Of a stretch of 33,489 nt of DNA, positions 8,836-26,865 are shown piece after piece. The DNA lies in NCBI GenBank assembly GCA_024710805.1, contig JANJUB010000144.1, positions 1 to 33,489 of the forward strand. The letters run 5' to 3'. The translations under genes and the position numbers were made by a program. Origin of the DNA: Fimbriimonadaceae bacterium. GTDB lineage: Bacteria; Armatimonadota; Fimbriimonadia; Fimbriimonadales; Fimbriimonadaceae. The notes beneath the pieces are model-generated. The model was not told the DNA's origin. It was given only the letters and a program-made list of their open reading frames with translations, and ran no database searches. Positions within the stretch are counted from its first letter, which is position 1, and every line of letters begins with the position of its first letter.

Positions 8836-9681
8836 CTACTCGTCGCCCGCGACGATGCGCTGGATGTCCGCCCAGGCGCTCTGCAGGTCCGAGGTGAGTG
8901 GGATCTGCGATCGTGCGATCGCAATCTGGTCGAGGTCGACGGGCGCCACCGCAAGATGGTCTTCGAGCAGTGGAGCCTGCACCAGCACCTGGCCGAAGGG
9001 ATCCACCACCGAGCTGCCGCCGACAAATCCCTTCCCCCCTTCGAATCCGCACAGCTGCGCATTCACACAGTAGACGCCGTGCTCGTCGCTCACCGAACGA
9101 AGCATGCGCCCATACCGCTCTAGGTTGCCCACCGATTCGCCTTGGAATCCCCGAGCCGGGGACGCGGACGGCACGAGCATCACCTGAGCCCCACGAACCG
9201 CGCACAGCGACGGCAAGATCGAGTGCCAAACGTCCTCGCAGATCAGCACGCCCATCCGTCCCAGGCGCGTGTTGAACACGCCCAGTTCGTGCCCACGCGC
9301 GACAAACCGCTCCTCGTCGAACACGCCGTAGGTCGGCAGGAAGAACTTGCGGTACACGTGCACCACGCGCGGCTCGTTGCCGAGCTCGATATACGCCGCC
9401 GAGTTGTAAAGGTTGTCTTCGAACCGCTCGTAGAACCCGATCAGCACGTCCATGCGGGGACTGCTCCGCCGCACAATCTGCCGCAAGAGTTCATCGGCGG
9501 TGAGCGCTGATTCGAGCACCCCGCCCTCCAAGAAGTAGCCGCTGGTGATCGTCTCAGGAAAGACCATCAGGTCGACGCCCTCTTGGGCGCCCTGCTCCAT
9601 AAACTCGGCGATCCGGTCGAGGTTCGACGGAACCTGGGCCTTGCGGGGGGTGAACTGAGCCGTGCCGACCGTGAAGGTCAT
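8836..9681 (-). CDS. Carbon-nitrogen hydrolase, nitrilase superfamily
   Basis: The 281-residue protein is a nitrilase-superfamily amidohydrolase. The catalytic triad is visible: Glu43 in VFPE, Lys112 in YRKFFLPTYG and Cys148 in LICEDVW. The CEDVW form and the GESVGNLERYGRMLRSVSDEHGVYCVNAQLCG region resemble the glutaminase-type branch related to the amide-hydrolysing domain of NAD synthetases. No synthetase domain follows, so the substrate is open (an amide or N-carbamoyl compound is likely). The ATG shares an ATGA overlap with the helicase gene upstream, which indicates translational coupling. A role in DNA repair is not obvious, so coupling may only mean shared expression. Confidence 0.9.
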   Translation of the reverse strand: MTFTVGTAQFTPRKAQVPSNLDRIAEFMEQGAQEGVDLMVFPETITSGYFLEGGVLESALTADELLRQIVRRSSPRMDVLIGFYERFEDNLYNSAAYIELGNEPRVVHVYRKFFLPTYGVFDEERFVARGHELGVFNTRLGRMGVLICEDVWHSILPSLCAVRGAQVMLVPSASPARGFQGESVGNLERYGRMLRSVSDEHGVYCVNAQLCGFEGGKGFVGGSSVVDPFGQVLVQAPLLEDHLAVAPVDLDQIAIARSQIPLTSDLQSAWADIQRIVAGDE

Positions 9682-12068
9682 GGTTCGAGTTTACCGACCC
9701 CGTACTCCCGGACAGTGAGACCCGCCGGACGGAAGTCGGTATCCACGCGCAGAATGTTGGCCAGCTTCCCTCCGATCGAGTTGTGAGATCGCTGTTCGTG
9801 GATCACCACGCAAAGCCGCTCGCGCGCTCGCGTCATCGCCACATACATGACCCGCCACTGCTCATCTCGCTCCCGCTCCGCCTCTTCGTGCAGCAGCCAC
9901 GCCGCCGTTAAACCGATCTGCTTCCGGAAGCACGTGGCGACCAGGCCCCGACGGGGATCGAGAGCGACTTCTTGCTCGCGCGGCTTATCCGGCTTGAGCG
10001 TCTCCGGTACGATGACCACGGGAAACTCCAAGCCCTTCGACTTGTGGATGGTCATGATCTTCACGACGTCGGCATCATCGTCCAGGGTCGAAGCCTGGCT
10101 CTCGCGGTGGGCCATCCGCTGGATATCTCGCACCGTCTCAGCAAACTCCCGAGCGCCGACTTCGGGCCGCTCGGCCGCCAGCATCAGCAGCTTCCGCACG
10201 TTGGCCAGGAGCTGCTCCTTGGCGTCGCGACGGGCGAGCGCCTCCAAGAACCCGGTGCGCGCAAAGAGCTCGCCGATGACCTCCCATGCGCTCAGGCGAT
10301 CCGCGTGGGTGCAAAGGTCGTCGAACCACCGCCGCAACCCCCACAGCTTCGCGATATCCTCGTCGGGCAGCCCGGACGCCGCCGGATGCGCGGTCACCTC
10401 CAAGACTTGCTCGTACACGCTCGGACCCGACTGGCGCCGCTTGGCTAAGATGACGAACGCATCGGCCGAGACATCGACGAACGGACTCCTCAGAACCGCG
10501 AGCGCGGTGTTATCGTCGTGGGGGTCGCACAGCCACCGCAACGCGTTTGCCACATCCCGGACCTCGAGCCGAGTGTAGTAGCGCTCATTCGAACCGATCA
10601 CCTGCGATTCGATACCCACGCGGCCAAGTGCCTTCTGCGTCGCGAGCGCCTGCTCGCCTGTCTTGACGAGCACGCACACGTCCCCCCGTCGGATCGGCTG
10701 ATTGTCCTTCCGAGTCGTCTGCTCGATCACGATCTTCGTCAACTCGGCCACGCGCTGGTGGTCGGGTTGTCGCATCGGCCACACCTCCACGCCTTCGCAG
10801 GCCGTATCCGGAAAGTGGAGCGTCAAGACGTTGTCCGACTGGGTGGTCTCCGGGGTCGACGCGGTCATCGGCACGTAGTCGCTCAGCCACTGCTGCGAAA
10901 ACACCTTGTCAACGAAGTTGAGGATTCCCGTGGTTGATCGGTAGTTGCGTGTGAGGGTCAGGCTCGTATGCTCGCCGCTGTCCTTCCGGTCCACGAACAG
11001 CTGCCGATCGGCAAGCCGAAAGCCGTAAATCGACTGTTGGGCGTCCCCGACCATCAGCTCCGTCTCGATGCCGAGCCCGGTCAGCAACCGGTATTGGACT
11101 GGGTTGAGGTCCTGCGCTTCGTCCACAAACACCACGCGGTACTGATCGCGCATCCGCGCCCGGACCGACGCGTTCTTCTCAACCAAATCGACCGCCAGCT
11201 GCTCCAACAGCGTGAAATCCAGTTCGCCTCGCCGCCGCATCTCCGATTCCAGCCGCCGCCACACCGCGACCACCAGCCGCACAAACGCCGAGGTCTGCCA
11301 GGCCGCATCCGTGTCCTCTTGCCCTTTCTTGAGCCACGCTGGCTTCTTGATCTTGAGCTGACTGAATAGCCCGAACAGTTGCTCCTCGAGCGGCTGCTCG
11401 GGATCGATCTCGGCAACGATGCGGGCGTCGAGAGTCTCAACCAGGGCCCGATTCCAAGTCTCGCGCGTTGCCTCTGGCGTGGCGTATCGCCGCTCGAGTT
11501 CTGCGGCGGTAATGCCGGTCCCTCGCAGGTTGCTGAGCGCCCGTTCGATGGCTCGTTGCAGCGCGGCTTGCGGCCCGGATGTGCCGTACACCTGGTTTCC
11601 CGCAAGCATCTCCAGGAGCGCGGCGATCTCGGGCTCATCGTCATAGGAATCGGCGAGCACCTCGAGCACAATGTCCCGCTTCAGCCGGGCGCTGTCGGCG
11701 TCGGCCATGATGCCGCAGTCGGGGTCGAGACCCGCCGCCAACGAGTTCTCCTTCAGCACCCGCTGGCAAAAGGAGTGGATGGTCTGGATGGGGCCCGTCT
11801 CAGCGATCTGGGCGTCGTGCTCCAGCCCCGCGTCATGCAATCGCGTGACGATGCGGCTCTTCATCTCCGCCGCGGCCTTGCGCGTGAAAGTGATCGTCAA
11901 GATGTGATCAGGCCGCAGGGCATCCGCGTGCGGGCGTTCCTGGAGAAGCCGCAAGTAGCGCTCGACGAGCACGTACGTCTTCCCTGCTCCCGCCGCCGCC
12001 GACACGACGATACGGCTGGCGTCCGATCCGATGACGAGTTCCTGTTCGCCGGAGGGCTCAAGCCTCAT
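9678..12068 (-). CDS. AddA-like UvrD-family helicase without nuclease domain
   Basis: This is a superfamily 1A helicase of the UvrD/AddA type, which unwinds DNA from ends during break repair. All motifs are present: Walker A SAAAGAGKT (23-31), TITFTRKAAAEM (Ia), QTIHSFC, VVFVDEAQDLNP (II), VGDAQQSIYGFR (III), LTRNYRS (IV), KIMTIHKSKGLEFPVV (V) and MYVAMTRARERL (VI). The protein stops about 40 residues after motif VI at 796 residues, whereas classical AddA has about 1,200 and a C-terminal RecB-type nuclease. The start is the ATG at 12068; the frame stays open to 12191, but that part lies in the upstream gene. It overlaps the AddB-like gene by 11 bases and the nitrilase gene by 4. Confidence 0.92.
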   Translation of the reverse strand: MRLEPSGEQELVIGSDASRIVVSAAAGAGKTYVLVERYLRLLQERPHADALRPDHILTITFTRKAAAEMKSRIVTRLHDAGLEHDAQIAETGPIQTIHSFCQRVLKENSLAAGLDPDCGIMADADSARLKRDIVLEVLADSYDDEPEIAALLEMLAGNQVYGTSGPQAALQRAIERALSNLRGTGITAAELERRYATPEATRETWNRALVETLDARIVAEIDPEQPLEEQLFGLFSQLKIKKPAWLKKGQEDTDAAWQTSAFVRLVVAVWRRLESEMRRRGELDFTLLEQLAVDLVEKNASVRARMRDQYRVVFVDEAQDLNPVQYRLLTGLGIETELMVGDAQQSIYGFRLADRQLFVDRKDSGEHTSLTLTRNYRSTTGILNFVDKVFSQQWLSDYVPMTASTPETTQSDNVLTLHFPDTACEGVEVWPMRQPDHQRVAELTKIVIEQTTRKDNQPIRRGDVCVLVKTGEQALATQKALGRVGIESQVIGSNERYYTRLEVRDVANALRWLCDPHDDNTALAVLRSPFVDVSADAFVILAKRRQSGPSVYEQVLEVTAHPAASGLPDEDIAKLWGLRRWFDDLCTHADRLSAWEVIGELFARTGFLEALARRDAKEQLLANVRKLLMLAAERPEVGAREFAETVRDIQRMAHRESQASTLDDDADVVKIMTIHKSKGLEFPVVIVPETLKPDKPREQEVALDPRRGLVATCFRKQIGLTAAWLLHEEAERERDEQWRVMYVAMTRARERLCVVIHEQRSHNSIGGKLANILRVDTDFRPAGLTVREYGVGKLEP

Positions 12069-14949
12069 CGCCACCTCCGAAGTCGAACGGATCATCGATA
12101 TCGCTGAACTCGCGTGAGCGGCGGCAGAGTTCGCCGAACTCGCACGTCCGGCACGGATCGCCGGGCGTTGGGTTGATCCGCCCTTGCGCAACCCGTTGAG
12201 TCGCTTGCTCGAGCTGCTGGATCACATTGCGCCGCACCTCGATCTGCTCGGCGGGCTCGACTCGTGAACTCACGAGCGTCCCGAAGTTCGGCGCGAAGTG
12301 GCCGTCGCCCTCGCGGAAGATCATGCGCCGCCGTCCGGTCGCCGCGCAGTCGATCTCAAGCGCGGCGTTGGCCCGAGCGGGCCGAATCGCGAGCATCGCC
12401 AACCCAAGTTCGAGTTGGTCTTCGGGGGCCATCTCGCTGAAGACACCATGGTCGGATTTGCGGGTGACCGGATCGGTCTGCCGAAACACGTGGAGCACTC
12501 GATAGCCCTGCTGAACCGTCATCGCCGGGTACTCGCCCCGGAACCGGATCGTCCGGCCATCCTCGAACTTGATGGACGAGCGCAAGTGCTCATCGTCGAA
12601 ACCCACGCCGTGGCCGACGACCTCATCCCGCGGCCACCGCTCCCTTGCCTCGAACTCGCGCTCGACCCATTCGCGGATCAGCCGCTTGCCTCCCGCCCGC
12701 ATCAGCGCGAGGTCCGCCGCCGTGCTGTCGCTGTACAGGTCGGTCAGCATCGTGTCGAGTTCTTCAAGCAGCCTGTTCGAGGCCGACTCGCGGTCCGGCT
12801 GGCTCGCGAGCGCCGCCACCTGGGGCAGGTTCAGCAGCCGATTCCAGCGCGTCGTCATTCGGGGCGCATTCACTCGCAAACGCGACGATGCCGCATAGCG
12901 GAAAGGGCACTGGAGGACGTACACCAACTCCCGCATCGAGAACGGCTCTTCGAGGTCTCGCTGGATCGCAAGCTTCGCCTCCTCGGAAGCGAGATCGAGG
13001 GGCGTCGGTTTGGACCTCGGCCCCGACAGGGCCTCGGCAAGCTGCACATCATTCGGTAGGGTTGGCGACTCGGGCACAAACTGCTGCCGCGAGTAGGTCT
13101 GCTCGGTAACCGCCATCAGCCGTTGCACCTCCTGCAGATAGTAGGCGGGGACATTGTCGCGCTCCTCGCCGGTCTGGGGATAGCTCAGCAAGAGCCGGCG
13201 GCGCGGCGCGCAGGCCACGCGGTAGAACTCGTCGCGCTCTTCCCTCGCTTGCCGATGGCTGTCGGGGAGCGTAACTCCGAAGTGACCGCTCATCCATTGC
13301 AGGTCGGCGTCAAACAAGATCGGGTTCTCAGAGCGCCGCCGCGGGAAAACCCCTTCGAGCATCCCCAGCACCCAAACGACCTCCACGTCGCCCAGCGACT
13401 CCGCGGCGCTGACCACCGCCACGCCATCCGGGTCGTGCGGCAGCGAGACCTCGGTTGCCTCCCACAGCCGAAGCGCGTCGTGAACAAAGCGTTCAAAGGT
13501 CCTAGCCCGTCCGCCTCGGAGGCGTTCGACCGTCGCCGCATCCGCCAGGGCACGCTGCATCGCATTCTGCGCGTAACCATCGCGCTCTTGAGTCGGGGTC
13601 TTCGCCTCGAGCGCCGCCGCGAGCCAAGCCTGATCCCCCAAATCGCGAATCCGCTCGGCCCATTCGTCGAGCGGCTTGGCGCCGGTTCGAGACTCGGTCC
13701 GCCACTCCAAGACCGGCAACAGCCACAGCGCGATCTCGGCCGAACTCTCCGTGCGAATCGCATCTTCAAGAGCCTGCCACTCGTCGGAGCGCACCCGATG
13801 CGCCTCCCGGATCACCGACTCGATTTCTCCCACCACGCGCCGTGGCATCCGCAGGTAGCTGCTCGTCAGCAGCGGCAGCAACCCTCTCACATCGCGGGCG
13901 GCGAGGGCACGCAACAGATCCACAAAGAAGCGCACGAAGCCATTCGACAGCAGCGGCACCGATCGGCCGCACCGCAACGGCAGGCCCAGCCGCTTGGCCG
14001 CCGCTTCGATTAGTGGCGCATAGTCGGGCAGACTCCGGGTCAAGATCGCGATCTTTGAGGCGGGAGTGCCTCGGTTCACTTCGTCGAGCAGGGCCCGGAT
14101 CGCCCACTCGACCTCCGCCAACTGATCGGGCGCAACCGTAACTTGAACATCGAGGTCGGGCGTACTCCCCGCAAACTCGCTCTCGGCAAACAGTTGGGCG
14201 GTCAGGCGGTTGGCTCTCGGCAGACTGGCAGGCTCCGACCCCAAGCGCAGCAACGCATTCTGCGCCCCTTCAAAGAGCGTCTGGTTCGTTGGGTGGGATT
14301 CAACCAGGATCGTCACCCGGACTCCCTGATCCGCCGCCCACTTCAGCCAATCGAGGGCGAGAGGCGCATCGTCGGATCCGGCCCACACGAGCACGTCCAG
14401 ATCGAGTTCACCCTCTCCCTCGATCTCAAAACACGCCTCCATCCGCTCGCGGTTGAACCGCTTGCCAAGCATGGACATCGAGTGCGCGACCGCAGCTTGA
14501 AGCTGAGCGAGGTCGCGAAGCTTGGGAGCAAGTTCCTCTGGCGCGTGGGGCACCGCACCGCGCAGTTCGGCGGCCTCGAGTCCGTACGCCCTCAGGTCGT
14601 CGAGCAGTCGCCCCGCATACCTCTGGAATCCCGGCGTAAACGCAGTTGCCGCGAACGGGGAGTCTTCAGGCAGGTCCTCGCACGCTTGCGCCAGAGCCGC
14701 GCGCAGATGGCCCTGATTCGGCAGACCAATCGGGTGCCCACCCAGATGCGAGAGGCAATGACCCACAAACTGGCCAAACTCGACCACTTCCAGCGACGGA
14801 TCATCGTTGTCGAGTTCGCGGAGCGCACTGACTCTCGATCCCGAGAACGCAGTCAGATAGAGCTGATCCCCATGGCGCAGCTTGCCCAAGACCACGCGCA
14901 CGGCATCGAGGCCGGGGGTCGCGAGGATCACCTGAAGCCGCGATGCCAT
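12058..14949 (-). CDS. AddB-like protein with Fe-S cysteines and degenerate nuclease site
   Basis: The 963-residue protein has the layout of AddB: an inactive helicase-like body and a C-terminal RecB-family (PD-(D/E)XK) domain. The four cluster cysteines are kept: CPFRYA, and CRTCEFGELC at 933-942 in the exact C-x2-C-x5-C spacing. The nuclease catalytic motifs are not. Where AddB has GRIDRID this protein has GEYPAM (805-810), the DYK motif reads HVF (820-822), and the QLxxY motif reads QLELG. The N-terminus (ATPGLDAV) also lacks the Walker A motif that many AddB proteins have. It is likely a structural partner of the AddA-like helicase next to it. The ATG at 14949 has a TACACT seven bases upstream. 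Confidence 0.85.
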   Translation of the reverse strand: MASRLQVILATPGLDAVRVVLGKLRHGDQLYLTAFSGSRVSALRELDNDDPSLEVVEFGQFVGHCLSHLGGHPIGLPNQGHLRAALAQACEDLPEDSPFAATAFTPGFQRYAGRLLDDLRAYGLEAAELRGAVPHAPEELAPKLRDLAQLQAAVAHSMSMLGKRFNRERMEACFEIEGEGELDLDVLVWAGSDDAPLALDWLKWAADQGVRVTILVESHPTNQTLFEGAQNALLRLGSEPASLPRANRLTAQLFAESEFAGSTPDLDVQVTVAPDQLAEVEWAIRALLDEVNRGTPASKIAILTRSLPDYAPLIEAAAKRLGLPLRCGRSVPLLSNGFVRFFVDLLRALAARDVRGLLPLLTSSYLRMPRRVVGEIESVIREAHRVRSDEWQALEDAIRTESSAEIALWLLPVLEWRTESRTGAKPLDEWAERIRDLGDQAWLAAALEAKTPTQERDGYAQNAMQRALADAATVERLRGGRARTFERFVHDALRLWEATEVSLPHDPDGVAVVSAAESLGDVEVVWVLGMLEGVFPRRRSENPILFDADLQWMSGHFGVTLPDSHRQAREERDEFYRVACAPRRRLLLSYPQTGEERDNVPAYYLQEVQRLMAVTEQTYSRQQFVPESPTLPNDVQLAEALSGPRSKPTPLDLASEEAKLAIQRDLEEPFSMRELVYVLQCPFRYAASSRLRVNAPRMTTRWNRLLNLPQVAALASQPDRESASNRLLEELDTMLTDLYSDSTAADLALMRAGGKRLIREWVEREFEARERWPRDEVVGHGVGFDDEHLRSSIKFEDGRTIRFRGEYPAMTVQQGYRVLHVFRQTDPVTRKSDHGVFSEMAPEDQLELGLAMLAIRPARANAALEIDCAATGRRRMIFREGDGHFAPNFGTLVSSRVEPAEQIEVRRNVIQQLEQATQRVAQGRINPTPGDPCRTCEFGELCRRSREFSDIDDPFDFGGGDEA

Positions 14950-17395: not shown

Positions 17396-19786
17396 TTAGT
17401 TGCCCCCTCCAGTTTGGGACTTGTTGGTTTTGTCGCCGAATACCCCCGACTTGTTCAGTTGATCTTGCGTCGGCAAGCTCAACTTCTTCCTTTGCTCGTC
17501 GGTGAGTTTTGCGGCCTCGGCCGGGTCACGGACGACTCGCGGCGTGAGGAAAACCAGCAACTCCGTCTTCTGGTCGGACTTGTCCGTGGAACGGAACAGG
17601 TTGCCGAGAATCGGAATGTCACCAAGCAGAGGAATCTTCTTCGTGGTCGTCGAGACCGTGCTGCGAATGATTCCGCCAAGGATGATCGTCTCGCCGTCCC
17701 TCACCGCAACCGTGGTTTGCGCCTGGCGCTGGTTGACGATGGGAGCGTTGAAGCTCGTAAATCCTTGCAGATCGTTCGCGGTCTGGTTGACATCCATCGT
17801 CACATAGCCGCCGGCGGTAATCCGCGGCGTCACCGTGAGAACGATGCCGACGTCCTCGAAATCGTAGTTGAACGTGATGTTGCCATTGGCATCAGCCCGC
17901 TGGCTGACCACGAACGGAACGCGCTGGCTGATGTTGATCTGAGCCTCGACGTTATTGCTCGTGAAGATCCGCGGCGTGGATAGCACGTTGAACTTGGTGT
18001 CGGTCTTCAGCGCGTTCATGAACGCGGTGAGCGCGCCACCCGTGAGCGTATAGCGGAATCCCTGTGGCAGGGTGTTGTTCGGTCGCAGGCCGAAGTCCTG
18101 AGCTGCCGTACCGGTTCCTGCGGTCCCAAACACCTTGCCGTGAGCGTCCTGCCACTCGATGCCAAGTTTGCTCGACGAATCCAGCGAAGCCTCGACGATG
18201 ATCGTCTCAATCATCACCTGCTCAGGGATGCGGTCAAGCTGGCCAAGAAGCGAGCGGATCAACTCGGCATTCTCCGGTGTAGTGACAACGATGAGGCTAT
18301 TGGTGTTCTGGTCCGGAATGACCGTCACCTGGTTGGTCAGGTCCTGGACTGGCACCAATCGGCCCTGAGCGTCTCGCCCTAGCGGAACGTTCTGGCGGTT
18401 CTGCTGATTCTGCTGACCGCCGCCGCCAAAGAACTGGCCAAAAATGCCGCCCTGAACCGCGACATTCGTCATCAGCTCACCGGCCGTCAAGTTCTCATCC
18501 TCGAGCAGCAACTCGAGTTCCGTTGCGTTCGGGTCGATGTTGTTGGCTCCAAATCCGCCGCCACCGAACTGGCGGTTCTGGTTGTTGCGGTTCTGGTTAT
18601 TACGATTCTGATTCGTGGTTCCGGTGTTGCGGTTCTGATTATTGCCCGCGTTGCCAGCGCCTGATCGGTTGCCAAACGCCTGGCGCAGGAGATTCGCAAC
18701 CTGATCAGCACGCGCATTCTCCAGCGGAAAAACGAAGGTGTTCGACTCGAGTTTGACCTCGGTGTCAAGTTCCTTGATGACCTGTTCGACCAGCAGCTGA
18801 TTCTCGTCGGTCGTCGTCACGATGATCGAGTTCGTTCGCGCTTCGGCGATGGCCGAGCCCTGCGTCTGGTTTCGGTTGTTGCCGCCGAATCCCATGAAGC
18901 TGAATCGTCGATCCACCGGCTGCTGGCTGGCGCTCTGCCCGCCGCGGCCCAACGGCTGATTCGCCACGAGCAAGTTCTGGATGATCGGCTGCATCTCTTG
19001 GGCCGTCGCGTAGTTCAACTTGTAGACCTTCGCCTTGGTGGGATCGTCGGTCTGCTTGTCGATCTGCTTGATGAGATTTTCGACCTGCGAGTGCGTCGTG
19101 CGGGGAGCGTTGACAATCACGGTGTTGCTGAAGTCGTCCGAGGACGCCCGGACGACCGTCTGGTTCCCGCCCATCATGCCCGGGTTAAAGCCGCCACGGC
19201 CACCCCGACCACCCTGCATACCCGCGAACATCCCCATGAGGCCCTGAAGCGGGTTCTGGCCGCTCTGCGCGAACACTTCGTTCACGACTCGCGCGACCTG
19301 GCTAGCGTTGGCAAACTGAATCTGGTAGACCTTCAGTTCGGTGCTGCTGTTGCCCATGTTGCGCATCATCTCGCCGATCTGGTCCTGAGACATGCCGCCA
19401 AATCCACCGCGGTCGCCACCGCGCTGCTGCTGTCGGGGCCGAACAACCAGGAGATTGCCTTCCTTCTTCAGCTCGAAGTTGCGCACCGATAGGGCCGCGT
19501 TGAGGATCTCAAACGCCTCCTTCAGCGGCACTTCCTTTGCCGTGGTCAGGGTCAACGGGGCGGTAAGGCCCGGATCCTTCACGATGGTAATGCCCGATGT
19601 TCGCGTGAACAACGACAGGACCATATCGACGTTGGCGTTTCGGAAGTCCAGCTTCATCTTCTTGCTGGGCAACGTAAAGCTCTCCCATGCCGGCCTCTGC
19701 GCCGCCGCACCGCCAAAGTCAAACTGCGCCATCGCGCTAAAAGGCACGATAGCGGCAAAAGCCAGCAATGCTAGTCTTGTTTTCAT
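17396..19786 (-). CDS. gspD: Type II secretion secretin GspD-like
   Basis: The 796-residue protein forms the outer-membrane channel of the secretion system. It has a signal peptide (1-20), an N0-type domain (about 40-115: LDFRNANVDMVLSLF and ITIVKDPGL), repeated N1-N3 domains (VYQIQFANASQVARVVNEVF, VYKLNYATAQEMQPIIQNLL, and NTFVFPLENARADQVANLLRQ), and the C-terminal secretin domain. The latter shows VMIETIIVEASLDSSSKLGIEW, VPFVVSQRA, VGIVLTVTPRI, ETIILGGIIRSTVS, KIPLLGDIPILGNLF and TELLVFLTPRVV. A low-complexity Asn/Gln/Arg insert lies at about residues 380-405 and Gly/Arg-rich segments in the N-domains. It sits in the operon between gspC and the LTXXQ gene. Confidence 0.93.
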   Translation of the reverse strand: MKTRLALLAFAAIVPFSAMAQFDFGGAAAQRPAWESFTLPSKKMKLDFRNANVDMVLSLFTRTSGITIVKDPGLTAPLTLTTAKEVPLKEAFEILNAALSVRNFELKKEGNLLVVRPRQQQRGGDRGGFGGMSQDQIGEMMRNMGNSSTELKVYQIQFANASQVARVVNEVFAQSGQNPLQGLMGMFAGMQGGRGGRGGFNPGMMGGNQTVVRASSDDFSNTVIVNAPRTTHSQVENLIKQIDKQTDDPTKAKVYKLNYATAQEMQPIIQNLLVANQPLGRGGQSASQQPVDRRFSFMGFGGNNRNQTQGSAIAEARTNSIIVTTTDENQLLVEQVIKELDTEVKLESNTFVFPLENARADQVANLLRQAFGNRSGAGNAGNNQNRNTGTTNQNRNNQNRNNQNRQFGGGGFGANNIDPNATELELLLEDENLTAGELMTNVAVQGGIFGQFFGGGGQQNQQNRQNVPLGRDAQGRLVPVQDLTNQVTVIPDQNTNSLIVVTTPENAELIRSLLGQLDRIPEQVMIETIIVEASLDSSSKLGIEWQDAHGKVFGTAGTGTAAQDFGLRPNNTLPQGFRYTLTGGALTAFMNALKTDTKFNVLSTPRIFTSNNVEAQINISQRVPFVVSQRADANGNITFNYDFEDVGIVLTVTPRITAGGYVTMDVNQTANDLQGFTSFNAPIVNQRQAQTTVAVRDGETIILGGIIRSTVSTTTKKIPLLGDIPILGNLFRSTDKSDQKTELLVFLTPRVVRDPAEAAKLTDEQRKKLSLPTQDQLNKSGVFGDKTNKSQTGGGN
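18572..18645. repeat. Asn/Gln/Arg-coding repeat inside gspD
   Basis: Degenerate short tandem units encode repeats of the type NQNRN within the N3-domain region of the secretin. The units are imperfect at the DNA level (CAGAACCGCAAC against CAGAATCGTAAT), so the repeat is conserved as protein rather than freshly duplicated. A similar QNQNRN tract is in the gspC-like gene next to it. Confidence 0.7.
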
Positions 19787-19813
19787 GGTCTTGCTCTACT
19801 TATTCTACGCCGA

Positions 19814-20515
19814 TCACTCACCCGGGGCGAAGAAGAACTCACTATTGTCATTTCCCGAAGGAATGGTCACAACGCCGGCACCAGGTCCAGGCATCACGCC
19901 AAATCTCTGATTCCCTGTTTCCGCGTTCCGATTCTGGTTCTGACGGCCCTGGTTACGAATCTCGGGGGAGACCGCCACGGGCAACGGAGCGAATCCGCCC
20001 GTCATCTTGGGCCGCTCTTCGTTCACCAATGAGAAAGTCTTGGTTCCCGACGGCCCCTTCATGACCACGCTATCCGGCATGATCTGGGAAACCATGGCGC
20101 TCTTCCACCTTTCGCCCGCCTTGAGGAAGACGCCCTCGCCCGTCGAGCGATTCTCCAAAAGCGCGGTCGGAACGCCGTCGATCTCGGCGTTTCCGGTGAA
20201 GAACCAACCCGAATCACCACCCGCAAACTCGGCCGGGATCGAGTTTGCCTGGCCCTCGCCAACGCCGAGTCCTGCCCCCTTCCGAGCAATGATCGGTTGG
20301 AACGAGTTCTTGAGTTCGATGTTCACGGGCTCAAAGGTCGCGTTGTAATCCTCTTCAACATAGGCAACCGTGGTCTTCTTCGATGGGGCCTTCTTCTTGG
20401 TCACGCGCGTCGTCGCGAGCGAGGAACCCGTCTCTTCCGGAGCTGTCGCCATCCAACCGACAACACCTACCGCCGCTACCCCAATCCAGAAAATCGGTTT
20501 CTTAATAAGACTCAT
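19814..20515 (-). CDS. GspC/PilP-like inner-membrane connector
   Basis: The 233-residue protein has one N-terminal membrane helix (about 7-24), a Lys/Thr-rich linker, and a periplasmic domain resembling the HR/PilP domain that touches the secretin. Its pattern is GVPTALLENRSTGEGVFLKAGERWKSAMVSQIMPDSVVMKG. There is no PDZ domain, unlike classical GspC. The C-terminal 60 residues are low-complexity with an NQGRQNQNRN tract and a Gly/Pro segment. The ATG at 20515 overlaps the gspM-like stop (ATGA). A longer frame to 20980 exists but lies over that gene. Its place between the PilO-like and secretin genes matches pilP. Confidence 0.75.
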   Translation of the reverse strand: MSLIKKPIFWIGVAAVGVVGWMATAPEETGSSLATTRVTKKKAPSKKTTVAYVEEDYNATFEPVNIELKNSFQPIIARKGAGLGVGEGQANSIPAEFAGGDSGWFFTGNAEIDGVPTALLENRSTGEGVFLKAGERWKSAMVSQIMPDSVVMKGPSGTKTFSLVNEERPKMTGGFAPLPVAVSPEIRNQGRQNQNRNAETGNQRFGVMPGPGAGVVTIPSGNDNSEFFFAPGE

Positions 20516-21033
20516 TTCTTCTCCGCATCCATCTCGCGATACGCCACGACTCCAATCGTCGCAGTTACTTTGTCGCTCGCACCGTCGGATGACGCAATCT
20601 GAACTGTAGATACGATGGCTCGGAACTTCGAAGTTTCCAAATCCTGGAGAAAGCCGATGACCTGGGGAAAAGGACCTTCGAGGGTCGCTTGATAGGGCAA
20701 TCGGACCACCCCGTCGTCGTCTTGGGTGCGTTGGGGACGAAAAGCGATGACTTTCAGATTGCGAGCTTGAGCAAGCGAAGTGACCTTTGCCATGGTCGCG
20801 GCGGCCACTTCGTCCGCCGGCTGCGTCCAAAGCCGCAGCAGGTTCTTCGCCCGCAACGTGGAAACCTCGGTGCGGAGCGTCTCGATCGAGGCATCGAGTT
20901 TGCGATCCTCTTGGGCTCGAGTCGCCACCACGGCACCCGCCGATTTGACCGGAAACGCAAAACTGGCGACAAGCATGCATGCTGCGACGACTACGGCTAG
21001 GTATCCGAGGGCAATCCAGTTCTTCTCGTTCAT
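20512..21033 (-). CDS. GspM/PilO-like protein
   Basis: The 173-residue protein has a membrane helix near the N-terminus (about 7-27), then a coiled-coil (RAQEDRKLDASIETLRTEVSTLRAKN) and a ferredoxin-like periplasmic domain with LPYQATLEGPFPQVIGFLQDLE, the signature segment of PilO proteins. PilO/GspM dimers connect the L (PilM/N) protein with the C/PilP protein. Both ends overlap neighbours by 4 bases (ATGA), so it is translated as part of a coupled chain. Confidence 0.82.
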   Translation of the reverse strand: MNEKNWIALGYLAVVVAACMLVASFAFPVKSAGAVVATRAQEDRKLDASIETLRTEVSTLRAKNLLRLWTQPADEVAAATMAKVTSLAQARNLKVIAFRPQRTQDDDGVVRLPYQATLEGPFPQVIGFLQDLETSKFRAIVSTVQIASSDGASDKVTATIGVVAYREMDAEKK

Positions 21034-22295
21034 GGCTTGTAATCCTCCGAATCGAGGCCGAAGTTGCCCACGATGTGGAGCGTCATCGAGAACTGAACGA
21101 CACTCGTCTTCTCGATCTGTCCGTTGTTGGCGAAGACGAGCTTCACATCGCGGAACCTCGGGTTCGCCGAGAGCTGCTCAAGATAATTGGTGACCGATTC
21201 ACCGGTCAGCGAGGTGCCGCGGATCGTGGCTGGCTTTCCACGCTCGAGCGTCATGCCGGTAACCCAGAGCCCCTCGGGGGTGAGTTTCGTCACGATCGCT
21301 GCCACATCGACAAGACGCTGTCGCGGTTCAAATCCAAGATCCAGCACGGTCGCAACCTTCTGGATGTCGGTGAGCCGAGATTGCGCTTGCGACTGGGTTT
21401 GACGCTTCGCGGTCAGGATTTTCGCCCACTTGGCCTCGCCGCTCTTCACGTCTGCTTGTTTGGTTAGTCGTTCGTCGAAGATCACCGCGGCGAGCATGAT
21501 CGTCGCCACCCACAACCAAATCGCGACGCGTTGGAACCGCTTCGACTTCGAGTACGCGCGCCGGGCGACGACGTCGGGCGGCTCGAGATTGATGGCGAGC
21601 ACCGCGCCAGACAAAGCGGCGAGCGGCGATCGTGGATCGTCGGCATCTGCCTTGGCCGGAATCAGCCCCCCTGCTCCGATCACCGGGGCCGGGTTCATCT
21701 TGGCTGAAGCAAAGCTCCGGGCAACTTCGGCGGGCATCTGCGGGCCTCCGGGCATCGGCACGACGCGCGCCGCCTTGAGTTCGCCGTCTTCCACAAGGTC
21801 GATGGCTAGACCCTCGGGCGTCTCGTGGAGGACCGCCGCGTCCTTGAAACCAAGCGAGCCCGCCAACAACGACGACCCAAGCGCCGCAGGAACGATCGCT
21901 CGCGACTTGAGTCCGCTCGATTGCAGTTCAGCAAGGACCGTTTTCAGCGTGTCGCTTTTGACCGCGGCAACGACGGCGAGCCTGCCTTCCCCGTTTCGAT
22001 TATCCGTCAGAAAGAAGTCGACCGCGGTTTCAGCGGGATTGACCGGGAACAGCGTTCCCACCTGCAAGTTGAGGATCTTCTGGACTTCCGACTTGCTCGC
22101 ATCGGGCAATCGCGTCGTCCGGACAAACGAGCTCCTCCGCGAGAGGGCCACGACGATTTCGTCACCTTCGATCTTCGAGCGCAGACTCGCCAGCGAGTCG
22201 CCTTGAATCAGCTTCTGACTCGCCGGATCAAACAGGACGACGCCCGTGGGAGACCATTCGACAACCGGAATCGGAGGGTGGTCGTTACGACTCAT
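21030..22295 (-). CDS. GspL-like protein (PilM-PilN fusion)
   Basis: The 421-residue protein has a cytoplasmic PilM/GspL actin-like N-terminal part (about 1-245; IVVALSRRSSFVRTTRLPDASKSEVQKILNLQV is the PilM-type pattern). A single membrane helix follows at about 255-273, then a coiled-coil and a periplasmic PilN-like ferredoxin domain (VTKLTPEGLWVTGMTLERGKPATIRGTSLTGESVTNYLEQL). This is the GspL architecture that recruits the GspE ATPase to the membrane. The N-terminal domain is shorter than PilM, and I cannot see a clean ATP-binding set. It overlaps gspM-like and gspK-like genes by 4 bases each. Confidence 0.82.
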   Translation of the reverse strand: MSRNDHPPIPVVEWSPTGVVLFDPASQKLIQGDSLASLRSKIEGDEIVVALSRRSSFVRTTRLPDASKSEVQKILNLQVGTLFPVNPAETAVDFFLTDNRNGEGRLAVVAAVKSDTLKTVLAELQSSGLKSRAIVPAALGSSLLAGSLGFKDAAVLHETPEGLAIDLVEDGELKAARVVPMPGGPQMPAEVARSFASAKMNPAPVIGAGGLIPAKADADDPRSPLAALSGAVLAINLEPPDVVARRAYSKSKRFQRVAIWLWVATIMLAAVIFDERLTKQADVKSGEAKWAKILTAKRQTQSQAQSRLTDIQKVATVLDLGFEPRQRLVDVAAIVTKLTPEGLWVTGMTLERGKPATIRGTSLTGESVTNYLEQLSANPRFRDVKLVFANNGQIEKTSVVQFSMTLHIVGNFGLDSEDYKP

Positions 22296-23521
22296 TCATC
22301 CTCCCCGAGCACAATCTCGTTCGTCGTCTCTTCCGCCCAACCCCATAGTGCATTCATATTGCGATAAACCGGTTCACTGACCTTCAAAACTTGCGCTCGG
22401 CTATCCGCCACTCGAACCATCGCTTCGAGTGTGTACCGGGACGTCCCCGCCTGACCTTCGATGCGGACGATGAAGACCTCGGAGTCGGTCGTCAAGCGAT
22501 CGACCATTGACGCCATCGTCTGCACGGTAACTCCCGGCACCTGGAACATCTCACTCAGCGCATTGATCCCCGCGCTCTGCCGCGAAACGATCGCCTGTGC
22601 GATGTCCGTCGTGAGTTCAGGGATCGTCACCAGCACGTCTTCACGCGCCGTGTTGACATTGATCCGCCCCTCGTTCCTCGGCTGCCCCCCCACTTGAAAT
22701 CGATCGATCACCACTCCGGCAGCTTCGGGGGTCATTCCGGCAACGGTGAGCACGTCCCCCATACGGGTGAAGGTGCCCTGCGTGTTCCGCCGCAAAATGA
22801 TCGCCGCCGCAATCGGAGCCGGGACCCCCGCTTGAGTCAGCGCCCCTTGATTAACGGTGTTGATATTGCCTTTCGTCTGGCCGTCGGGAGTAAGGCTCGG
22901 GGAGAACGAATCGACGGTTGCCAGCGAGTAAATCGGCTGTGGCGTCGCGCCCGTTGTGTTCTGAGTTTCGGGGGTCTGAAAGAGGCTCGCCGGCTCAAAG
23001 CCCTTGATCAACAGGAGTTCGTCGATATGGTCCAGGCGACCGAGCTTGGCGTTGTAAGGCTTTTCGAGTGTGTTGTAGAACTCGTCTTTCGCGCCTTCGG
23101 GCCGGGGCGTGAATCCCTCCTCGCGCCAGTCGAGCAGCGAGTCGATCTGTTCCGAGGTCAAACCCATGTTCTGCAGCTGCGTCTCGTCGGCGACGTTCAA
23201 GTTCACAAGACTCGCGGCATCGATAATCTGCATGCGGAATCGGATTCGCCCGACGGTAAAGGAGTCGTTGGCCTGGTTGCCCAAGGTGTACCACTCATCG
23301 AGTTGGGTGACCGGCGAATTGACCTGAAACTGCAAGGTCGCAAGGGCCCGGGCAAGGCCCGATTGCGCGGCAAGGCGGGCGCGCTGGGCGTCGATTCGCT
23401 GCACCGCCGCCCGGAACTCACTCCGTTCCACGGCAAGCGCCGAAACCAGCATCGCCGTCACCGCAAAAACCACGACCATGGCGAGGATCATGACCGCGCC
23501 CCGGCGTCGACACCGGTTCAT
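22292..23521 (-). CDS. gspK: Type II secretion minor pseudopilin GspK-like
   Basis: The 409-residue protein begins with a prepilin-type leader (RRRG then AVMILAMVVVFAVTAMLV) but lacks the usual Glu at +5, which is the hallmark of GspK. Three helix-hairpin-helix-like repeats are seen: LVNLNVADETQLQNMGLTSEQIDSLLDWR, INTVNQGALTQAGVPAPIAAAIILRR, and INVNTAREDVLVTIPELTTDIAQAIV. GspK caps the pseudopilus tip with GspI and GspJ. It is encoded directly after gspJ with a 4-base overlap. Confidence 0.9.
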   Translation of the reverse strand: MNRCRRRGAVMILAMVVVFAVTAMLVSALAVERSEFRAAVQRIDAQRARLAAQSGLARALATLQFQVNSPVTQLDEWYTLGNQANDSFTVGRIRFRMQIIDAASLVNLNVADETQLQNMGLTSEQIDSLLDWREEGFTPRPEGAKDEFYNTLEKPYNAKLGRLDHIDELLLIKGFEPASLFQTPETQNTTGATPQPIYSLATVDSFSPSLTPDGQTKGNINTVNQGALTQAGVPAPIAAAIILRRNTQGTFTRMGDVLTVAGMTPEAAGVVIDRFQVGGQPRNEGRINVNTAREDVLVTIPELTTDIAQAIVSRQSAGINALSEMFQVPGVTVQTMASMVDRLTTDSEVFIVRIEGQAGTSRYTLEAMVRVADSRAQVLKVSEPVYRNMNALWGWAEETTNEIVLGEDE

Positions 23522-24255
23522 GGTGTGCCGCCCTCCACCGTCGTGCCAAGCGGATTCGAAGCCGTAATGTCGCTCCCCAGCACCCGGACCACGAACGAGC
23601 GAGGCGTCTCCTCATCTTCCGTCAGCGTGTAGGTGATTCGCACTGCCGCCGGGAGCCGCCTCTCGAAGGTCTCAGTATCCCAATCAGGTTGCCAATCGAG
23701 CCCGTCCCAGAACTCAAAGGACAGGGATGAAATGCGCTCATCGAGCAGGGATTCGTAGCCACCCTGTTCGGGGTCATCGTCCGAGGGGGTCTGCTGGCGC
23801 AGGAATGCGCCGGTGAGGTTGCCCGCGTCACCGATTGGCGTCAGCCCGATCCTACGCTCGATCACGCCACCCACTGGCCCAATTCGCTCATTGCGATCCT
23901 CGAACGTCGAGCCATCAGAGGCAATCGCACCGCCGGGCAGCCTACTTCCCGCCACGGTGAACATCAGTTCCGTGGCCGCCTCTCCCGATCCGAGCGCGGA
24001 CGAGCCCGACGGGTCGTTGCGAGCGATGAAAAACGTGTGGGTGCTGTCCAGGCTGCTGTCGATGTACGCATTCTCGATCAGTGATCGAAGCTGATTTTCA
24101 ATCGCGAACTCCTGCAGCACCGCCTGGCGACGAGGAGCGACCTCGGTCTGATAGCGCACCGCCGAAGAGAACGCGACGGTAAGCCCCATCACGACGAAAA
24201 TCCCGATGACCAACGCCGTCATCAGCTCGATCAGCGTTATGCCGCGGCGTTTCAA
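23518..24255 (-). CDS. gspJ: Type II secretion minor pseudopilin GspJ-like
   Basis: The protein of 245 residues has a short leader (MKRRG) followed by ITLIELMTALVIGIFVVMGLTVAF, with Gly at -1 and Glu at +5 for prepilin peptidase processing. The large C-terminal domain and its place between the I- and K-type genes support GspJ. It contains SLSFEFWDGLDWQPDWD, resembling the GspJ segment in which fit-for-purpose strands pack against GspI. It overlaps gspK and gspI by 4 bases on each side. Confidence 0.85.
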   Translation of the reverse strand: MKRRGITLIELMTALVIGIFVVMGLTVAFSSAVRYQTEVAPRRQAVLQEFAIENQLRSLIENAYIDSSLDSTHTFFIARNDPSGSSALGSGEAATELMFTVAGSRLPGGAIASDGSTFEDRNERIGPVGGVIERRIGLTPIGDAGNLTGAFLRQQTPSDDDPEQGGYESLLDERISSLSFEFWDGLDWQPDWDTETFERRLPAAVRITYTLTEDEETPRSFVVRVLGSDITASNPLGTTVEGGTP

Positions 24256-24653
24256 GGCGTCTCGCCTCCCACGACCGTAGCCTGGGGCTCTTCGTAGGCA
24301 AGTGCGGTCGCATTCACTTCAGCACTCCTCCCCGAAGTCTCGGCCAGCCGCACTGACACCGTCAGCTGACTCAAGTTCTCGACGCCGGTTGTGGATACGC
24401 TCGCCTCCCACAGGAAGCGTTCGTCGCCCATTTCCTCGAAGGTGCCACCAACGTTCGTGATCTGCCCGGTGGCGATGAGGTCGTCGAGCTTCATCACCGC
24501 GAGGCGGCTCATGCGCTCGCGCTCGATCGCCAGGGCTTGCGCTTTCGTCAAAGAAGCCAAGCCATTGACCGATGCCGCCACGCCGATGCCGGTGAGAACG
24601 ACCGCGACCAACGCTTCCACGATCGTGAAGCCACGCTTACGACCGACGGACAT
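24252..24653 (-). CDS. gspI: Type II secretion minor pseudopilin GspI-like
   Basis: The 133-residue protein has a prepilin leader (MSVGRKRG) and FTIVEALVAVVLTGIGVAASVNGL, with Glu at +5. The short size and SRLAVMKLDDLIATGQI resemble GspI (the A.A...l.e....g pattern). An in-frame GTG at 24659 is also possible. I prefer the ATG at 24653 because AGGTGA, a good Shine-Dalgarno site, ends two bases before it in the region where gspH still reads. The overlap with gspH is 17 bases. Confidence 0.83.
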   Translation of the reverse strand: MSVGRKRGFTIVEALVAVVLTGIGVAASVNGLASLTKAQALAIERERMSRLAVMKLDDLIATGQITNVGGTFEEMGDERFLWEASVSTTGVENLSQLTVSVRLAETSGRSAEVNATALAYEEPQATVVGGETP

Positions 24654-25158
24654 AGTCACCTGCTTCCCATTCGGTCAACGTGGTGTCAGGAAGTTCTCCG
24701 CGCTGAATCCGGCCACGCCCCGTCTTGGGCTCGATCACCAGCGCCCAGGTCTCGTTAGCCTCGGTGAGCAACACGCCGCCCGGGTCCGCCGTGCCGTCCT
24801 CGTAGAAGCGAAGTTCCCACTCGTCGGCTCCGATGTCATCGGCACCCAAGCGAAAGCTCGTCGCGCTAATCCCTTGGACGGGCGCAATCTGCTCGAACAC
24901 CTGTCCCTCGTCCGACTCCTCCGAACTCGCGCGAATTTGGAAGCTTCCTTCGCCATCGCTGACCAAGCTCACGGTCTGACCCGTCTGCACCGCGATCCCC
25001 CGGGCGTCGGTCGTCAACCGCTCGACATCCTGGAGATAGGACCGGATGCGCTGCGACTTAACCACTGAGGCGAGACTCGGATACGTGATGGCCGCGATCA
25101 TCGCCAAGATGACGACGATCGTGGAAATCTCGATCAGGGTGAAGCCGCGGCGTCGCAC
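24637..25158 (-). CDS. gspH: Type II secretion minor pseudopilin GspH-like
   Basis: The 173-residue protein begins with MRRRG then FTLIEISTIVVILAMIAAITYPSLASVV, a complete prepilin peptidase site. The rest is a beta-rich domain with RFYEDGTADPGGVLL and EPKTGRGRI, close to the GspH/FimT family (the F.pdGt...g motif). The start is a GTG at 25158, nine bases after the gspG stop, with no clear Shine-Dalgarno site. Its order after gspG agrees with gspH in known systems. Confidence 0.85.
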   Translation of the reverse strand: MRRRGFTLIEISTIVVILAMIAAITYPSLASVVKSQRIRSYLQDVERLTTDARGIAVQTGQTVSLVSDGEGSFQIRASSEESDEGQVFEQIAPVQGISATSFRLGADDIGADEWELRFYEDGTADPGGVLLTEANETWALVIEPKTGRGRIQRGELPDTTLTEWEAGDYVRRS

Positions 25159-25167
25159 GAAAACGGG

Positions 25168-25614
25168 CTAACCCAACTCCTCGTCGTTCCCAACGTCAGC
25201 GGCGTCACCCTCTCCACCCGGGGCTCCGTCCGACCCGTATGAGATGAGGAAGAACGAGTCATCTCCCGTCGATCCCGGATACTCATACACGTAAGGATTC
25301 TGCCAAGGGTCCGGCGGAATCGCCTTCTCGATATAGGGGCCACGCCATCCGCGCACGTCGCCTGGCTGAACTCGAAGAGCCTCCAGGCCTTCTTCCGACG
25401 TCGGGAACCGATCGCAATCGAGGCGGAAGTTGTTGAGCGCGTTCGTGAGCGCAGCGATATCGGAAGCGGCTTTCGCCCGCTTCGCGTCGCTGGTTCGACC
25501 CACGACGCGCGGCACGATCAGCGCCGCCAAGATCGCCAAGATCAAGATAACGACCAGCAACTCGATGAGCGTAAACGCCGATCGTCGCCGCATAAACACC
25601 GTTCTTTGATTCAT
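25168..25614 (-). CDS. gspG: Type II secretion major pseudopilin GspG
   Basis: GspG builds the pseudopilus shaft. The 148-residue protein carries RRRSA then FTLIELLVVILILAILAALIVPRVV, followed by FPTSEEGLEALR, GWRGPYIEKAIPPDPWQNPYVYEYPG and SYGSDGAPGGEGDAAD, the calcium-binding loop typical of GspG. The residue before the cleavage site is Ala, not the usual Gly. The ATG at 25614 is chosen because AGGAGA stands six bases upstream. Further in-frame ATGs exist upstream (to 25638) and one downstream at 25593. Confidence 0.93.
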   Translation of the reverse strand: MNQRTVFMRRRSAFTLIELLVVILILAILAALIVPRVVGRTSDAKRAKAASDIAALTNALNNFRLDCDRFPTSEEGLEALRVQPGDVRGWRGPYIEKAIPPDPWQNPYVYEYPGSTGDDSFFLISYGSDGAPGGEGDAADVGNDEELG

Positions 25615-25620
25615 CCCTGT

Positions 25621-25626
25621 TCTCCT
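25621..25626 (-). promoter_or_regulatory. Strong Shine-Dalgarno site for gspG (AGGAGA)
   Basis: AGGAGA on the minus strand lies six bases before the ATG at 25614. It decides the gspG start and shows that this genome uses Shine-Dalgarno initiation within operons. The major pseudopilin needs the highest translation in the system. Confidence 0.7.
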
Positions 25627-25640
25627 CATCATTACCAAAC

Positions 25641-26855
25641 CTATTTCACCAAGTCCTGTGCCTGGAAGATCGGCAGCACCACCGACAGCACCACGAATCC
25701 GACGAAAACACCCATCGTGAGCAGGATCGTCGGCTCGACGAGGGCCGTCAGCCGTCGCATACCGTTATCGACTTCGAAGTCCAAACTGTCCGAGACGCGC
25801 CCCAACATCTTGGGGAGATCGCCCGTTTCTTCGCCGATCGCCACCATGTGCACCAGTACGGGCGGAAAGCCCCCCGAATCGCGCATCGCCTCGGCGATCG
25901 GACGTCCTTCGCGCACATCCTGCGCGACCTTCTCACTGGTGACTTTGAACAGCCGATTGCCCGCGGACATGCCCGCGATCTGGAGGGCTTCCAAGATCGG
26001 AACGCCGCCGTAAACCAGGGTGCCCAACACCCGCGCGAAGCGAGAGACGATCGCCTTCGTGATGACCGGGCCGGCGGCGGGAAGGCTCATAAAGAACTTA
26101 TCGCGTGCCATGGCACCCGGCTCCGTGGCCGACCAGATTCGATAAAGCACCACCGTACCCGCGATTCCGAGCAGAACCAGAAGGGCGTTCTCGGTCAAGA
26201 AGCCAGTCGTAGCGAGCAAGATCTTCGTCGAAGCCGGCAGATTGTCGCCCAGATCCTCAAAGACGCCGGACAAGCGGGGCACGACAAACGTGAGCAAGAA
26301 GACCACGACCATCACCGCGGTGAACGTCAGGACGCCCGGGTAGATCAGCGCCGACACGATCTGCGATCGCCGCGCGACTTCCGTCTCCTGGAACTCGGCG
26401 AGCCGCGTGGCGACTTCGGGAAACTGGCCGCTGGCTTCGCCGGCTCGCAACGTCTGGGTGTACACCTCGTTGAAAACCCTGGGATGCTTCGAAAGCGCCT
26501 GCGACACGCTGAGTCCGCTTCGGACATCCTCGAGCGCCTCTTCGGCGATCTGAGTCAGCCGTGCGCTCTCTGACTGCTCGGCCACCACCTGCAGGCCGCG
26601 ATCGAGCGGCAAACCCGCAGAAGACAGATCGGCCAGACGTCGCGTGAACAGCGCGATGTCTGCCTTGTTGATCTTGCCGCCACGCCCCGGGGCGTGATCC
26701 TTGTGCTCTACCGTGCGCCCTTGAGGGCGAATGTCGACGACGAACCGCCCTTCCGCCACGATCTTGGCGATCGCCTGATCTTGATCGGCGGCCTCGACGA
26801 AACCGGACCGTTTCTTCCCGGCTGGATCGAGTGCGGTGTAGGCGAACGTCGTCAT
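25641..26855 (-). CDS. gspF: Type II secretion inner-membrane platform protein GspF
   Basis: The 404-residue protein is the polytopic platform that couples GspE to pseudopilus growth. It begins with FAYTALDPAGKKRSGFVEA, the family opening. Two T2SF domains are visible: ALFTRRLADLSSAGLPLDRGLQVV (about 70-93) and SRFARVLGTLVYGGVPILEALQIAG (about 272-296). Three membrane helices lie at about 169-190, 218-240 and 374-396. It starts ten bases after the gspE stop. A GGAGGAG within the end of gspE is about 15 bases from the ATG, rather far. Confidence 0.95.
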   Translation of the reverse strand: MTTFAYTALDPAGKKRSGFVEAADQDQAIAKIVAEGRFVVDIRPQGRTVEHKDHAPGRGGKINKADIALFTRRLADLSSAGLPLDRGLQVVAEQSESARLTQIAEEALEDVRSGLSVSQALSKHPRVFNEVYTQTLRAGEASGQFPEVATRLAEFQETEVARRSQIVSALIYPGVLTFTAVMVVVFLLTFVVPRLSGVFEDLGDNLPASTKILLATTGFLTENALLVLLGIAGTVVLYRIWSATEPGAMARDKFFMSLPAAGPVITKAIVSRFARVLGTLVYGGVPILEALQIAGMSAGNRLFKVTSEKVAQDVREGRPIAEAMRDSGGFPPVLVHMVAIGEETGDLPKMLGRVSDSLDFEVDNGMRRLTALVEPTILLTMGVFVGFVVLSVVLPIFQAQDLVK

Positions 26856-26865
26856 AGCGAGCTAG

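Follow-up and report, generated by a model that had tools for sequence, protein, structure and literature searches.

A window of 33,489 nucleotides, the whole stretch of DNA analysed here, comes from a contig of a Fimbriimonadaceae bacterium and carries on its minus strand two overlapping, adjacent genes that are homologues of both AddAB subunits. Judged from their sequences, these AddAB orthologues lack two of the features that define AddAB as a helicase-nuclease. We consider it probable that they represent a nuclease-free AddAB, in which AddA would supply the motor, AddB would act as a non-catalytic, RecC-like partner holding an iron-sulfur (Fe-S) cluster, and resection would be carried out in trans. 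A first-pass annotation of the window, made without database searches, had proposed that the pair appears to have lost all nuclease activity and would be a helicase with Fe-S as a structural clamp. The predicted fold, the clade-wide loss and the purifying selection described below argue for that proposal, and our analysis adds that the loss appears to have been inherited and stepwise, that the order includes relatives whose AddB is seemingly active, and that candidates for a nuclease acting in trans are encoded in the genome.

The nuclease of AddA is missing as an entire domain, and the gene has the following features.

9678–12068, minus strand: AddA-like superfamily 1A (SF1A) helicase of 796 amino acids, without a C-terminal nuclease domain (from motifs, Pfam and closest structure)
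11976–11999, minus strand: AddA Walker A, AAAGAGKT
9825–9845, minus strand: AddA motif VI, YVAMTRA, the final catalytic motif ahead of the stop

As the first-pass annotation had claimed, the SF1 helicase motifs I to VI (Walker A to VI) are complete and no nuclease domain follows them: the tail beyond motif VI is 41 amino acids long, and a Pfam search matched PF00580/PF13361 and found no PF12705 nuclease domain in AddA. The closest solved structure is AddA of the B. subtilis AddAB complex (3u44_A, E value 1.7e-47). The mechanical open reading frame extends from 9678 to 12191 with a TTG start; the ATG at 12068, which has GGAGG resembling a ribosome binding site immediately upstream and gives an 11-bp overlap with AddB, is the likely start. 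At the other end, the AddA stop overlaps the start of a nitrilase-family gene by 4 bp (9678–9681), which argues that the short C-terminus is neither a frameshift nor an assembly break. Both a frameshift and a truncation were rejected on this ground and because relatives are identical in this respect.

AddB, in turn, retains a recognizable nuclease domain in which the catalytic residues have been replaced.

12058–14949, minus strand: AddB-like subunit of 963 amino acids, without an N-terminal Walker A (AlphaFold2 model compared with AddB and RecC)
12121–12942, minus strand: degenerate RecB-type PD-(D/E)XK nuclease domain, AddB residues 670–943 (PF12705; AlphaFold2 model)
12907–12909, minus strand: Cys681 (in CPFRYA), predicted first Fe-S ligand, invariant in all aligned families
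12124–12153, minus strand: Cys933, Cys936 and Cys942 (C-x2-C-x5-C), the other predicted Fe-S ligands, invariant
12520–12537, minus strand: GEYPAM at the GxxDRxD position, with the catalytic Asp changed to Pro808 (alignment)
12484–12492, minus strand: HVF (820–822) where DYK is catalytic (alignment)
12403–12417, minus strand: QLELG (845–849) for QLxxY, with the Gln retained and the Tyr gone (alignment)

The AddB stop codon (12058–12060) lies within the overlap with AddA. AddB matches 3u44_B with an E value of 2.8e-5, PF12705 (PDDEXK_1) matches its residues 670–943 weakly (26 bits against a cut-off of 22), and Walker A is absent from its N-terminus. The three motif changes had been pointed out in the first-pass annotation and all hold when the protein is aligned with the C-termini of 13 AddBs from named genomes; in this alignment the 'GxxxH' helix is also without its catalytic His. 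The full Fe-S cysteine set that it described is likewise in place, with Cys 681, 933, 936 and 942 aligning with those of active AddBs.

Acidic residues and a Lys elsewhere in the domain might have rebuilt the active site, and AddB would then still cut. The family does have a near-invariant Glu765, and acidic residues are common at positions 844, 865 and 867. However, Glu765 and Asp867 are conserved in active AddBs too and so are not replacements, and positions 844 and 865 are acidic in only 69–77%. Just two charged residues of the domain are near-invariant in the family, Glu765 and Arg943, the latter adjoining the last Cys. With the His, both Asp and the Lys of the site gone, there is no conserved Lys near the old site, and the alignment of 42 family members, on which this judgement was based, contains no conserved Asp/Glu and Lys set that could restore it. 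A rebuilt site is thus unlikely, and we regard an AddB that remains active through such residues as very improbable.

Structure prediction of the AddB C-terminus, a check proposed at the outset, matches the domain in fold to known nuclease domains. The AlphaFold2 model of the domain, of modest confidence (mean predicted local distance difference test score, pLDDT, 58), matches AddB residues 752–1138 (VIA Z score 13.5) and the AdnA nuclease domain (Z 13.0), and the model of the whole protein (mean pLDDT 68) matches B. subtilis AddB over residues 4–945 (VIA Z 32); its match to RecC has a Z score of 22. Confidence is modest because the models used remote homologues only. From these models, AddB appears to have kept the RecB-type fold without its chemistry, as in RecC.

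The same state extends across the family. Using AddA and AddB proteins picked by BLAST and hidden Markov model (HMM) selection, we compared the window's GTDB family (f1) with other families of the same order (f2 to f5), of which f5 is the sister family. AddB was found in all 70 near-complete f1 genomes. An intact GxxD...DYK occurs in 0/71 aligned f1 AddBs, and all four Cys are present in 70 of the 71, the exception (G007) having an assembly gap. The sister family has mere traces of the first motif (intact GxxD...DYK in 0/7 AddBs, four Cys in 7/7), so the loss is shared by the 71 f1 and 7 f5 proteins. Since the same losses recur in all 71 family AddBs with the Cys kept, they are not due to chance, and a double nuclease loss common to the family and its sister points to a long-standing, selected state and not to a broken gene. 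Between the window's genome and a congener (95% identity; Nei-Gojobori, these two genomes), dN/dS, the ratio of nonsynonymous to synonymous substitution rates, is 0.061 for AddB, 0.068 for its dead domain, 0.033 for residues 791–900 and 0.04 for AddA. The dead domain is therefore under strong purifying selection and is maintained for something other than its known catalysis. A sequencing error or a recent pseudogene in this one genome might be suspected given that the assembly to which the window's contig belongs is a draft, but this explanation, to which we assign a negligible probability, is refuted by the same state in 70 further family AddBs and by the congener (dN/dS 0.06). Two irregularities were seen elsewhere in the family: the reading frame of one AddA (L063, G025) is interrupted by a TAG, through either a sequencing error or a disruption, and in G014 and G029 (L051, L052, L067, L068) AddA and AddB lie on separate contigs, unlike the usual adjacency.

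Families beyond f1 and f5 indicate how this state may have arisen. Every AddA of the order with its C-terminus read ends after motif VI, those of f2, f3 and f4 included. An intact AddB GxxDRxD...DYK is found in these last three families (8/8, 1/1 and 1/1, respectively). An N-terminal Walker A is present in the AddB of f3, f4 and some f2, and absent in f1 and f5. In several other families of the phylum, AddAs are 1044–1276 amino acids long and carry a GxxD...D[YF]K nuclease. If A and B denote the subunits and the sign the nuclease motifs, f10, f13, f14 and f38 are A+B+, f6 is A-B+ and f25 is A+B-. Because the AddA tree places f1 and f5 in one group with support 100/100, a single ancestral AddB loss is the simplest reading. 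According to this history, the AddA nuclease would have been lost first and the AddB site then once, in the f1/f5 ancestor. We considered f25 as a second full loss and rejected it: its locus L227 (G084) has IYR in place of DYK in AddB and keeps VDFK in AddA. Outside this comparison, Thermoflavimicrobium dichotomicum AddB (L128:2825-5980) has HYK for the expected DYK beside an AddA with an intact nuclease, possibly an independent RecC-like state. Within the window's own family, one genome encodes, in addition to the nuclease-less pair, another AddA-like helicase-nuclease (L237, G189:C1:183500-196500), which is full-length at 1097 amino acids and was probably acquired.

In the model that we favour, the two proteins would form a complex that engages DNA at a double-strand end and separates the strands without cutting them. 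AddA would be the ATP-driven 3'-5' SF1A motor, and the dead RecB-type domain of AddB, held together by a 4Fe-4S cluster, would bind the broken end and channel the unwound 5' strand, as in RecC. The Fe-S cluster is reportedly essential for end binding in AddAB (Yeeles et al. 2009, cited in PMC4824097). RecJ would be the most likely enzyme to trim the 5' strand in trans (the alternative being a stand-alone RecB-type nuclease), and RecA would be loaded by RecO/RecR. There are two precedents for this scheme: the inactivated nuclease domain of RecC serves as a strand channel (PMC1185551), and the helicase-only RecB1080CD of E. coli, which has lost nuclease and RecA loading, works with RecJ resection and RecFOR-mediated RecA loading (PMC3375238). 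By analogy, the pair may be a natural counterpart of the recB1080 'hybrid' pathway.

The genome encodes candidates for the other roles in this model. It encodes RecJ, RecO, RecR and PcrA, and across the order RecJ occurs in 50/50 and RecO in 48/50 good genomes; the search for RecQ in the window's own genome gave two helicases that match only far below the cut-off. A search for another RecB-type nuclease, also suggested by the first-pass annotation, turned up one stand-alone RecB/Cas4-like protein of 262 amino acids (G000:C133:5623-6408) with an intact GRADRI...DYK site and four Fe-S-type Cys, the only other PF12705 (PDDEXK_1) protein of the genome. This protein raises the possibility, which we entertain tentatively, that cutting has moved to a dedicated partner, such that f1 and its sister family use a nuclease-free AddAB together with this Fe-S RecB-family nuclease in trans as a split machine. 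The stand-alone nuclease is present throughout the order, and a sample of the phylum gave it in 28/33 genomes with a nuclease-less AddA versus 2/24 with a full-length one, counts that are approximate and follow clades, so that they may reflect few events. Two of the five remaining genomes with a nuclease-less AddA gave a strong hit of stand-alone size in the order-wide search. Linkage is confined to two genomes: the distance is 1.2 kb to AddB in G039 and about 3.8 kb to AddA in G049. In the window's genome the gene is unlinked to AddAB. The nuclease also accompanies active AddBs, so it did not arise with the AddB loss, and the idea that it was a newcomer that triggered this loss was rejected on that ground. 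Should the partner arrangement be true, bacteria would have a resection system with helicase and nuclease split between separate proteins, and a single phylum would show the steps that led to it (A+B+, A-B+, A-B-; A+B- also occurs).

It is also conceivable that the pair no longer takes part in resection and works as a translocase or as a fork- or end-protection factor, with resection left to PcrA/RecJ alone. Both of these proteins are present, and with the two nucleases and the Walker A of AddB gone, the hallmarks of Chi-regulated resection are missing. Against this stand all the AddA helicase motifs and the Fe-S Cys, reportedly needed for end binding in AddAB, which are kept under strong selection, and we think such a role improbable.

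Several points weigh against the nuclease-free resection model itself. The AlphaFold2 scores (58 and 68) are modest, and rebuilding of the active site was assessed through alignment alone. RecJ and RecO are near-universal in families with an active AddB too, and their presence is permissive, not specific, for the proposed pathway; on presence alone, the stand-alone RecB-type nuclease qualifies equally well as the cutter. Finally, recB1080 E. coli is less fit than wild type (PMC3375238), and a stable natural version would therefore need explanation.

If the nuclease-free reading is correct, it bears on what these machines are kept for. AddAB and RecBCD are described as helicase-nucleases, with regulated cutting as their point, and a clade that has kept the machine for as long as the family has existed but dropped both cutters would show that selection preserves only end binding and unwinding. 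The function of the Fe-S domain would then be separable from catalysis. Together with living intermediates in related families, in which AddA is truncated and AddB active, such proteins would be natural material for testing how RecC-like subunits originated, what the Fe-S domain does and how a recB1080-type pathway works. In the literature we searched, which did not include the main phylogenetic survey (Cromie 2009), we found no description of an AddAB that naturally lacks nuclease, and priority is not certain.

Two other features of the window were noted. The gene that follows AddA is:

8836–9681, minus strand: carbon-nitrogen hydrolase (nitrilase family, PF00795), its start overlapping the AddA stop

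This neighbour of AddA is conserved: about 30 genomes of the family have a homologue immediately downstream of their AddA gene. Farther along, positions 17396–28413 (minus strand) hold a type II secretion/type IV pilus-like cluster with secretin, PilN, GspK-like, GspF-like and GspE-like genes.

Among known systems, the closest relative is AddAB (RexAB) of B. subtilis, with which the pair shares the adjacent addB-addA arrangement, a single SF1A motor, the AddB fold (VIA Z 32) and the four Fe-S Cys. It differs in that AddA has no nuclease, AddB has neither the nuclease catalytic residues nor Walker A, and the proteins are shorter by about 430 (AddA) and 200 (AddB) amino acids; scores against the NCBIfam equivalog models fall short, at 283 versus 708 bits for AddA and 41 versus 904 bits for AddB. 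AdnAB of mycobacteria likewise has two UvrD-like subunits, and the dead domain resembles the AdnA nuclease domain in fold (Z 13). Both AdnAB subunits carry nuclease domains, whereas here AddA lacks one and AddB lacks Walker A and an active nuclease. Stand-alone RecB-family/Cas4-like nucleases share the PD-(D/E)XK site and Fe-S-type Cys with the candidate partner, which is not fused to AddAB and is usually unlinked. RecC, which is homologous to AddB (VIA Z 22), has a helicase-like and a nuclease-like domain, both inactivated, and the window's AddB resembles it in combining a RecB-type fold with the absence of metal-binding residues. RecC is not known to have Fe-S Cys, and it works with RecD and with RecB, whose nuclease is active; the motor partner in the window lacks one, which sets the pair apart from RecBCD, and no RecD-like partner is linked (RecD was not searched for in the genome). 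The closest functional parallel would be E. coli RecB1080CD, an end-binding helicase without nuclease that has RecJ and RecFOR as partners (PMC3375238). That enzyme is a laboratory point mutant in the RecB nuclease active site, with reduced fitness, whereas the state seen in the window is natural, clade-wide and selected.

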